From Verrucomicrobiales bacterium (lineage in GTDB: Bacteria; Verrucomicrobiota; Verrucomicrobiia; Verrucomicrobiales; V1-33): a stretch of 64,000 nucleotides of DNA. The position numbers and the translations under genes are program-made. This document shows positions 25,189 through 28,210 of this stretch, in pieces (the stretch's first letter is position 1; the number at the start of each line of letters is the position of its first letter). The notes under the pieces are model-generated. The model searched no databases. It saw only the letters and a list, made by a program, of their open reading frames with translations, and was not told where the DNA came from. Location: contig JAQGPJ010000105.1 in NCBI GenBank assembly GCA_028293125.1, positions 124,001-188,000 on the forward strand, given 5' to 3'.

Positions 25189-25296
25189 GCGGCACCCTAC
25201 TCCCCGCCCTCCGCAGGTCAAATCCGCCACGGGCTGCGATACCATTCAAAAGGTTTGGGGAGCAATGGAACCGTGAGCGCGCTTAATTCTACTGTG

Positions 25297-25903
25297 TTAC
25301 AAATAGTCCTTCATCCGGCTGTTGATGAGGCCGAGCTTCATGAGGGCTTCGAGCTTTTCCGCGACAGCAGTCTCCGGAGCATAGCACCGCAGAACGGCTC
25401 TGGGATAATCTCAGCAGCCTGGGATAGGTCTCCTCCCGGGGAGGGGGAATGATGGAATCCCCATATCCCACATCCACCTGCAGGGGAATGCGGGCGAATT
25501 CAAGATACACCAGCATGGTCACCCGCGCTCTCACATACTCGTCCTGGGATTTGATCACCACCGCCTCCACACTCGCGGAATCGAAAACCACGCCATCCTC
25601 CTCATCCACAGTCTGAAGGATGATTTCCCGAAAAACCTCCGAGGCGGATTCAGGACGGGGATCACCAAATCCGAGCAGATCCAAATCACGTGTGCGGCGG
25701 TGAGGGAACCCGTGCCAGAGCGTGAAAAGTGACGCACTCTTGAGCACAAAGTGATCCCTGTGCGGCGAGATGGACAGTCGGTAAAGGAAAAGCTCCAAGC
25801 AGAACCGCACCAGCAGCTCGTTATAGTCGTCTCTGGTGTCCATGCGGATTTTCAACAAGCGGGCTTTTACAGAGGCCGCGACGTTTTTGAGGGGCTTTTT
25901 CAT
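25297..25903 (-). pseudogene. AbiEii-type nucleotidyltransferase toxin, frameshifted and truncated
   Basis: Toxin half of a type IV AbiE system; the intact toxin is a nucleotidyltransferase. The N-terminal frame shows HFVLKSASLFTLWHGFPHRRTRDLDLLGFG, the GS-x-D-x-D-like nucleotidyltransferase core. After YPRLL the frame is lost. Removing one base at about 25411 restores DYPRAVLRCYAPETAVAEK and then LEALMKLGLINSRMKDYL, the canonical AbiEii continuation, which ends at a TAA at 25297. The usual ~100 further residues are missing. So there is one frameshift plus loss of the 3' third. Without the shift the frame runs to 25289. It overlaps the antitoxin gene by four bases (ATGA). Confidence 0.85.
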
Positions 25904-26508
25904 GCGAGCGTCTCAAAATACGGGCGCATCACATTGAAAACCCGGCAGAGCTTGGCAAAATGAACCAGTTCATCGGCACTGGCCCTACGCTGAACCCACG
26001 CGTTTCTCAGGGCCTCGTAGGCCACGGAAACACCAACCTGACTGCGGAACTTGAAGCAGTCCGCCACCGTTCTCGCCGGGGAGTAAATCCTCACCGGCAC
26101 ACCTTCAATCAGATGCGTGCCGATGCCCTCGGAGAAAGTTTCCGCCGACACTTGGACAATGCGGGGACGCAGGTCTTTGGCCCGTGGAGTAAACCCGCGC
26201 GGCACCGCGATCCAGACTTCCGCCGGCAGCTCCAGAGTCAGTTCATGAAACTGCAGCGCGGAGAGCAGGCAGATTACAGCCTGCGGCCACCGTTTGGAAA
26301 CCTCCGCCAGTGAGTGGTGCGCGGAAAGCTCAAGGGCTGGAGCCATGTAAAGACCCCGGCCAGTACGCAGCAGTTCGCCGCTCCGCACCAGATCCGTCAG
26401 CGCCCGGCGTGGAGCCTTCATTTCACGGAGATCGCGCGGCCGCAGAATCCTCGACCGCGCCATTTCAAGAATTTCCGCTAGGTGGTCCGCTATGAGGCGA
26501 TGATACAT
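25900..26508 (-). CDS. AbiEi-type antitoxin / transcriptional repressor
   Basis: 202 residues. An N-terminal winged-helix AbiEi_4-type region (ILRPRDLREMKAPRRALTDLVRSGEL, then RTGRGLYM) is followed by the AbiEi C-terminal domain (PQAVICLLSALQFHELT, VWIAVPRGFTPR, VRIYSPARTVADCFKFR). In characterised systems the antitoxin represses its own operon and counters the AbiEii nucleotidyltransferase. This copy is full length and intact although its toxin is broken. An 8-base inverted repeat stands six bases before its start codon and could be its operator or an RNA hairpin. Confidence 0.88.
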   Translation of the reverse strand: MYHRLIADHLAEILEMARSRILRPRDLREMKAPRRALTDLVRSGELLRTGRGLYMAPALELSAHHSLAEVSKRWPQAVICLLSALQFHELTLELPAEVWIAVPRGFTPRAKDLRPRIVQVSAETFSEGIGTHLIEGVPVRIYSPARTVADCFKFRSQVGVSVAYEALRNAWVQRRASADELVHFAKLCRVFNVMRPYFETLA

Positions 26509-26513
26509 TAAAC

Positions 26514-26535
26514 CACCACTTCATTGCAAGTGGTG
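26514..26535 (-). promoter_or_regulatory. Perfect inverted repeat in front of the AbiEi gene, candidate operator
   Basis: CACCACTT (26514-26521) and AAGTGGTG (26528-26535) are perfect mirror arms around a 6-base spacer. They start six bases upstream of the antitoxin ATG. AbiEi proteins bind inverted repeats in their own promoter, so an operator is plausible. The closeness to the start codon would also let it act as an RNA hairpin over the initiation region. Confidence 0.55.
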
Positions 26536-26564: not shown

Positions 26565-26592
26565 CTACGTGATAATCCGGTTTATCATGTAG
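26565..26592. other. 28-base dif-like palindrome (11-6-11), candidate tyrosine recombinase core site
   Basis: CTACGTGATAA (26565-26575), spacer TCCGGT, and TTATCATGTAG (26582-26592). The two arms match at 10 of 11 positions. The geometry of two 11-base arms around a 6-base centre, with inner ends ATAA and TTAT, is that of XerCD dif and related sites. It is in the promoter region 32 bases before the ATG of a tyrosine recombinase and between two divergent genes. No second copy was found by eye in the window. Confidence 0.55.
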
Positions 26593-26624: not shown

Positions 26625-27647
26625 ATGGCCGGAGAACGGAGGATTCATATTTCCAAAACCAACGGAGGCACGGCCGCCGGCACCCACCCACTGGCTTCGG
26701 ATGCGCAACCCTCCCGCTCACCGATTCTAGAACGGCTGGCGGAAATTCCGGAAGAAGCCGTCTGGCTGGCCTCCCAGAAATCCGAGCGCACCCGCCACCC
26801 CTACAGGACCGACGTTCACGCCTTCATGCGGCTGCTGGGCATGAGCTCCTCCGACCAGCTGCGCGGCACCACGCACCGCGAAATCGTTTTCTGGGAAAAC
26901 CACATGCGCGAAATCAAAGGCTTGGAGAATTCCACCGTCCGACGGCGGCTAGCCGCTCTGTCCAGCCTGTTCCGACACTTGGTCCGGCACCGACATATGG
27001 AGAAAAACCCTGCCGCCGAAGTCCGGCGGCCCTCGGTCAACCGCCGGGAAGGCTCCACTCCGGCGTTCTCCAAAGAGGAAGCCCGGAAAATTCTGGATGC
27101 TCCCGATGCGGGCACCTTTGTTGGACTGCGCAACCGCGCCCTGCTCGCCATCGGATTTCAGGCGGGATTGCGGCGCTCCGAAATCGCACACCTTTGCGTG
27201 GGTGATTTTTACACTGACCGTGGGTTTGCGAGTCTCAGAATTATGCGCAAGGGCGGCAAAAAGGGTGCTTTGGCCATTCATCCCAACTGCGCCTAGCGTA
27301 TTCAGGAGTATCTGGCGACTGCGGAACACGCGACCGACACCGATGCTCCCATGTTCCTGCCGGAGAGCAACAACCGGCATGCGCGGGAAAAGCTGCGCCA
27401 TATGGACCCAGACACCGTGGACCGGATTCTGAAACGCCATGTGGAGGCGCTTGGCATCGGTGATGGGACCACCCGTTACTCGGCGCATTCCATGCGGGCC
27501 ACCTTCATCACCACCGCTTTGGATTCAGGCTCGCCGTTGGAGCATGTGCAGCGGGCCGCCGGACACGCGGACCCCGCCACCACCAAGCTGTACGACCGGC
27601 GCGGATATTCGCCGGAAAAAAGCGCCAGTTTCTTCGCCAATTACTAA
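26625..27647 (+). pseudogene. XerC/D-like tyrosine recombinase interrupted by one in-frame TAG
   Basis: 340 codons in a single frame with one internal stop, TAG at 27294-27296, in the sequence IHPNCA-stop-RIQEYL. The N-terminal SAM-like DNA-binding domain covers about 30-130. The catalytic domain has all expected residues: Arg in AGLRRSEIAHL, Lys in KGGKKGAL, HxxR in HSMRATFIT, His in AGHADPATT and Tyr in KLYDRR. The stop separates Arg/Lys from the rest. A CAG-to-TAG change would explain it. Either a recently inactivated gene or, less likely, one needing suppression. A dif-like palindrome is immediately upstream. Confidence 0.9.
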
Positions 27648-27903: not shown

Positions 27904-28210
27904 ATGAAAATCGGGTATGCGCGAGTCTCAACAGACAATCAAAATTTGGATCTTCAGCGCCATGCGCTGCAGGCGGCTGGGTGTGTTGGCAGAGTTTGAA
28001 AGGGCGTTAATTGCGGAACGTACCTGCGCGGGTATGGCCGCCGCGAAGCGGCGCGGTATTTACGTTGGCAGACCGAAAAAACTCACCTCTTACCAGCTTG
28101 CGCATGCCCACGATTTGATAATGGCAGGAGGCAGGTGGGCGGATGCGGCCGCTCTGGTAGGCGTCAATGTTTCCACCCTCCGGCGAGCCTTAAAATCCAT
28201 TGGATCGTAG
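27904..28210 (+). pseudogene. Serine recombinase (resolvase/invertase family) with internal deletion
   Basis: Starts as an intact resolvase, MKIGYARVSTDNQNLDLQR, including the nucleophilic serine in ARVST. After AAGC (about 27984) it jumps to another frame reading LAEFERALIAERT, then AKRRGIYVGRPKKL and an HTH (WADAAALVGVNVSTLRRAL). About 90 codons that should lie between, the rest of the catalytic domain, are missing. The junction therefore marks an internal deletion with a frame change. No active recombinase can be made. The stop is TAG. Confidence 0.88.

Follow-up and report, generated by a model that had tools for sequence, protein, structure and literature searches.

A 28-bp dyad as the predicted core site of a decayed, probably plasmid-derived Xer-like recombinase module

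The 28-mer CTACGTGATAATCCGGTTTATCATGTAG at positions 26565-26592 of the window (the whole 64,000-nucleotide stretch analyzed) is likely the core site of the Xer-like tyrosine recombinase encoded next to it, the two forming a single-enzyme module of probable plasmid derivation that is thereby expected to have served multimer resolution and has decayed at this location. We infer that the adjacent enzyme is the catalyst and that multimer resolution is the main role. The predicted 11-6-11 site lies on the plus strand and reads CTACGTGATAA-TCCGGT-TTATCATGTAG. All elements of the palindrome described in the original prediction are present: the arms agree at 10 of their 11 positions, the center is six bases long, the inner ends are ATAA and TTAT, and the end of the 28-mer is separated by 32 bases from the recombinase ATG at 26625. 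The site sits between divergent genes, with an AbiEi-type gene starting at 26508 on the minus strand and the recombinase gene on the plus strand. The center TCCGGT is asymmetric and the site therefore has a direction. Palindromicity alone is weak evidence: 11-6-11 dyads whose arms agree at 10 or more of the 11 positions occur four times in the window, and of these only the 28-mer has ATAA/TTAT inner ends. The palindrome by itself does not exceed chance, but its conservation beside homologous recombinases, 22 of which are preceded by the same site, does. A proposed overlap with the recombinase promoter found no support, as a search of the recombinase strand yielded no sigma-70-like site.

The recombinase gene (26625-27647, plus strand, 340 codons) encodes an N-terminal SAM-like domain (Phage_int_SAM_1) and a C-terminal Phage_integrase domain. 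Both domains are present and the active-site residues are readable in the motifs GLRRSEI, KGGKKG, HSMR, GHAD and LYDR. An in-frame TAG at 27294-27296, which splits the frame, had been overlooked in the original prediction. A relative, L011, carries glutamine at the position of this TAG and has an intact frame. The split gene could represent a pseudogene, a recent mutation or an assembly error, and, the genome being a draft, the amber codon may stem from faulty sequencing. The solved structure closest to L011 is XerD, with a phmmer E-value of 1e-18 compared to 1e-4 for Cre, and XerD is also closer than IntI4. By sequence, the window-type recombinase is accordingly classed as Xer-like and not Cre-like. 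Two other Xer-like proteins of the usual XerC/XerD type (L003 and L004) are encoded in the genome and are 28-29% identical to the window recombinase.

The site accompanies homologous recombinases across phyla. We identified 29 recombinase homologues with 49-62% identity in genome contigs from several phyla, and nearly all of those with enough upstream sequence carry one site, located 60-170 bp upstream of the gene or 430-900 bp upstream when another gene intervenes, for example one encoding a PIN-domain (VapC-like) toxin. The site is not recognizable at a few homologues (e.g. L027, L165 and L167). A motif scan of 19 recombinase-carrying genomes, using a 24-base version with up to 3 mismatches, was controlled with the reversed motif, which gave 0 matches. 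We retrieved 22 site loci, and in 20 of them the neighbor is a complete or partial recombinase. The other two had at first appeared to lack one but carry traces of it, a 55-residue stub in L146 and only weak traces in L148. Alignment of 23 sites (the 22 clade loci and the window), oriented by their centers, shows nearly invariant inner arms and outer arms that are variable yet mostly symmetric, with arm symmetry dropping to background a few bases beyond the 28-mer. Positions T12, C13, G16 and T17 are invariant in all 23. With respect to the gene the center occurs either way round, and its orientation, having switched more than once on the recombinase tree, is no useful family marker. The original prediction had named as damaging a site both unique in its genome and unconserved next to homologous recombinases; the 28-mer is unique and it is conserved.

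Similar modules are found on plasmids. The closest plasmid relative, the intact recombinase WP_171837335, is 73% identical to L011 and encoded on a complete circular 28.8 kb plasmid of Lichenicola cladoniae. This plasmid carries a single copy of the site, the perfect GCACGTGATAATCCAGTTTATCACGTGC, located 51 bp upstream of the recombinase. Plasmid recombinases with about 40% identity, found in Pseudomonas, Nitrosospira, Sulfuricella, Methylotuvimicrobium, Massilia, Paraburkholderia and Methylomonas, are preceded by 11-6-11 TGATAA-N6-TTATCA dyads with other outer arms and another center, for example ACTATTGATAA-AATACG-TTATCAATAGT. In the order to which the window belongs, relatives that are about 40% identical possess the same architecture (AGTATTGATAATGTATTTTATCAATACT). 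One version of the site of this more distant branch occurs at 96 places in 94 plasmids, as a single copy in nearly every plasmid. Six plasmids were examined whole: four contain exactly one ATAA/TTAT dyad and two contain none that is recognizable, no clear dyad being seen at the recombinase of pPT14-32 and of an Azotobacter plasmid. Toxin-antitoxin and defense genes often lie beside the module, which fits a plasmid-stability region.

This copy number favors multimer resolution over the use of the 28-mer as an attachment site, at which the recombinase would integrate, excise or invert a DNA segment. Such a role had been suggested originally and would agree with a tyrosine recombinase adjoining a core-type site, with the two or three sites present on different contigs of several genomes, and with the mobile defense and restriction genes in the neighborhoods of relatives. 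One copy per plasmid fits multimer resolution, while integration, excision and inversion would need a partner site. The anticipated second copy did not appear anywhere in the whole 6.48-Mb genome at up to 3 mismatches, including searches in which the center was left free, and there is consequently no excision or inversion partner at that threshold. Complete plasmids likewise carry one copy each, and the extra sites of other genomes mostly have their own recombinase. We therefore regard an attachment site as improbable.

Homology among related plasmids breaks at the site. We searched 72,556 plasmids with queries of about 2 kb centered on the site and recorded pairwise coordinates in which the site spans 0 to 28. 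Many partial matches start or stop at the site, and in many plasmid pairs the end of homology falls inside the site or no more than about 4 bp from its edges. Shared homology extends from -834 to +31 for pUSA011-2 and pTagA, from -819 to +26 for pUSA011-2 and PP3, and from -836 to +31 for pS7-1M and pGRT1, leaving the left flank in common. Breaks are seen in both directions, as homology runs from -1 to +868 for pS7-1M and pCFR-1cb6, from -2 to +856 for pGRT1 and pPHE69, and from -2 to +868 for PP3 and pPsy0479a. In plasmid pS7-1M the left flank is pGRT1-like and the right flank pCFR-1cb6-like, and in many further pairs the common sequence is the site alone. Footprints are strongest in the 40%-identity branch. 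The window's own clade contributes only two pairs: two contigs of one genome are alike on one flank as far as the site and differ beyond it, and two loci of another genome have the other side in common. Three further queries returned no near matches spanning the site. Other breakpoints exist, mainly where the recombinase gene begins, which is explained by the variable gene between site and recombinase (a GNAT acetyltransferase, a toxin-antitoxin pair or a hypothetical gene). Junctions restricted to 28 bp are unlikely to result from homologous recombination. The homology breakpoints of related plasmids, as opposed to the window's own copy, thus indirectly indicate that recombination takes place at the site. 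The proposal that the 28-mer is the recombinase's own core site gains support because the site is conserved with homologous recombinases and because plasmid homology breaks exactly there.

In the favored mechanism, two recombinase protomers would bind the two near-identical 11-bp arms, and synapsis would bring together two directly repeated sites such as those of a plasmid dimer. Strand exchange across the six-base asymmetric center, on the model of Cre/loxP and Xer systems, would then split the dimer into monomers. With a single site on each plasmid, the resolution of dimers and multimers would be the principal outcome, and occasional recombination between different plasmids with compatible sites would exchange flanks, which could explain the mosaics. 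A broader proposal, which we offer tentatively and lean somewhat against, is that the site family serves as a general joint for plasmid module exchange, the resolution site doubling as a cross-phylum gene-trading hub. If this were the case, compatible 28-bp sites would let plasmids swap whole flanks carrying toxin-antitoxin, defense and accessory genes, while single genes or toxin-antitoxin pairs would enter the slot that separates site and recombinase.

The location of the 28-mer between divergent genes also raises the question of an operator, a palindrome bound by AbiEi or by the recombinase to regulate divergent promoters. The AbiEi-type antitoxin/regulator gene (25900-26508, minus strand; PF13338, E-value 8.9e-10) is intact and divergent from the recombinase, and AbiEi proteins are known to bind inverted repeats in their own promoters (PMC7319586). 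Regulation of its own gene by the recombinase would be compatible with recombination, TnpI at irs being an example (PMC7157771), and a single copy per plasmid would suit an operator as well. However, none of the other clustered loci shares the AbiEi gene, yet the site is kept, and a different 8-6-8 inverted repeat, CACCACTT-N6-AAGTGGTG, lies directly upstream of abiEi at 26514-26535 and represents a better candidate for the AbiEi operator. A tyrosine recombinase needs an asymmetric center for site direction while a simple dimer operator does not, and the center is asymmetric in 23 of 23 sites. Regulation would also leave the exchange of flanks at the site unexplained, making an operator very unlikely as the explanation of the 28-mer.

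A further reading, to which we give almost no weight, is a chromosomal dif or dif-derived sequence used by the host XerC and XerD. The 28-bp 11-6-11 architecture with conserved inner ATAA/TTAT is shared with XerCD/dif, and the genome does encode the separate XerC/D-like proteins L003 and L004. XerCD/dif systems rely on two recombinases and two different arms, whereas one enzyme and near-identical arms are found here, and it is this likeness of the arms (10 of 11 positions in the window, highly symmetric in the 23 sites) that argues against a XerCD dif. In addition, the site follows its own gene, a third recombinase, instead of the chromosome, and occurs on plasmids; most of the 387 phylum genomes searched with the core of the site lack it. 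A search for the chromosomal dif itself in this genome, using a proteobacterial-type consensus, gave 3 matches and 3 control matches, which is chance level. An integron was rated low, as there is one site per locus and no cassette-site array at the clade loci.

The preferred core-site module resembles several characterized systems. Cre/loxP of the plasmid-phage P1 consists of one tyrosine recombinase and an adjacent dyad site with an asymmetric spacer, present once per plasmid. The modules described here share these features and probably also multimer resolution, as Cre resolves P1 dimers (PMC8138268). They differ in the dimensions of the site, which is 13-8-13 in loxP compared to 11-6-11 with ATAA/TTAT here, and in the Xer-like nature of the protein. 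XerS/difSL and XerH/difH are likewise based on a single Xer-type recombinase, and the XerS site is immediately next to its gene (PMC5357621); in contrast, these systems carry out chromosomal dimer resolution while the present modules are plasmid-borne and possess near-perfect dyads. XerS is found on streptococcal chromosomes, and difSL has an 11-bp center and imperfect, unequal arms (PMC5357621). TnpI/irs of Tn4430 and Tn5401 also combines a tyrosine resolvase, a site just upstream and toxin-antitoxin genes near the site, but irs contains the additional direct repeats DR1 and DR2 and is associated with a transposase (PMC7157771); among the neighbors examined here, no transposase was recognized. 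Integrons resemble the modules in having an integrase, an upstream site (attI) and genes on the other side; the modules differ in possessing one double-stranded dyad, no secondary-site array and a protein closer to XerD than to IntI4. Overall, both the architecture and the probable function correspond to those of known single-recombinase resolution modules.

The window copy appears to be a remnant. The AbiEii-type toxin gene (25289-25903, minus strand) is frameshifted and truncated; its match to PF08843 covers only positions 2-125 of 238. A six-frame reading shows that the protein ends out of frame and that YAPETAVAEKLEALMKLGLINSRMKDYL, the C-terminal sequence expected, runs on in another frame before an early stop. 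Downstream of the tyrosine recombinase stands a serine resolvase remnant (27904-28210, plus strand) that matches only the tail of PF00239; by frame reading, the N-terminus MKIGYARVSTDNQNLDLQ and the C-terminal part are in different frames and the middle is deleted. Because two XerC/XerD-type proteins exist and the module genes are broken, the module represents an extra, decaying recombinase set. It is located on a 214-kb contig that carries glmS nearby and is apparently chromosomal. In the source genome it is therefore most likely not an active plasmid module, the recombinase being interrupted and the contig apparently chromosomal. Given the interrupted enzyme and decayed neighbors, the site is most likely what remains of a plasmid or of a segment derived from one, and we infer a plasmid origin for the window module. 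As a stop codon splits its recombinase, the site is probably no longer in use here. To look for an unoccupied site in relatives, we used the neighboring DUF2891 gene, which is present only in one family member (G012), the rest of the neighborhood being unaligned.

A 2012 survey of tyrosine recombinases tied a large share of the plasmid-borne enzymes to no process and could not recognize the families resolving plasmid dimers (PMC3414803). A large group of plasmid recombinases would now gain a cognate site that can be read from sequence together with natural recombination footprints, making a previously unassigned group directly testable. The family supplies compact single-enzyme recombination systems drawn from several phyla, and it identifies one point at which plasmid mosaics are joined. 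The literature searched, which included few subscription journals, contained no description of the plasmid site family, and this is weak evidence of novelty. The interest lies more in this plasmid-wide family than in the window copy, a fossil that changes little about the source organism.

Sequences resembling the site also occur apart from recombinases. A scan of viral contigs with an 18-base core gave 46 matches, mostly in a few repeated contexts and with unrelated outer arms, and the stretches fetched contain no recombinase; TATTCTGATAATCC(T/A)GTTTATCAATTAT is common in these contigs (L039-L084) and is possibly coding sequence. In the 387 genomes of the phylum, the core with one mismatch yielded 25 sites, including that of the window's genome, compared to 1 control match. 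Apart from the window's own, these have no recombinase within the fetched 3 kb and were taken as other similar-core sequences. Several phylum genomes contain AAGCATGATAATCCTGTTCATCAAA-like sequences with no recombinase nearby (L085-L107 and L109, e.g. L102-L104 and L106). On plasmid pPs7B44 (L178, around position 2500), only the center and right half of the site are present, the left half being replaced, and the sequence adjoins an unannotated recombinase region.

Relatives of the recombinase are often found near ParB-domain and restriction or defense genes (L010, L011, L014, L034, L038 (left side); L015, L021, L024, L026, L034), the latter including a PLD protein with a Snf2 helicase, a type I methylase, a MmeI/Eco57I-like enzyme and an AAA ATPase. 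The gap between site and recombinase represents a variable slot for a single gene or toxin-antitoxin pair (L012, L016 and L028, and plasmid loci L150, L151, L153, L155 and L156), its contents comprising a PIN toxin, a GNAT acetyltransferase and a RelE/ParE pair.
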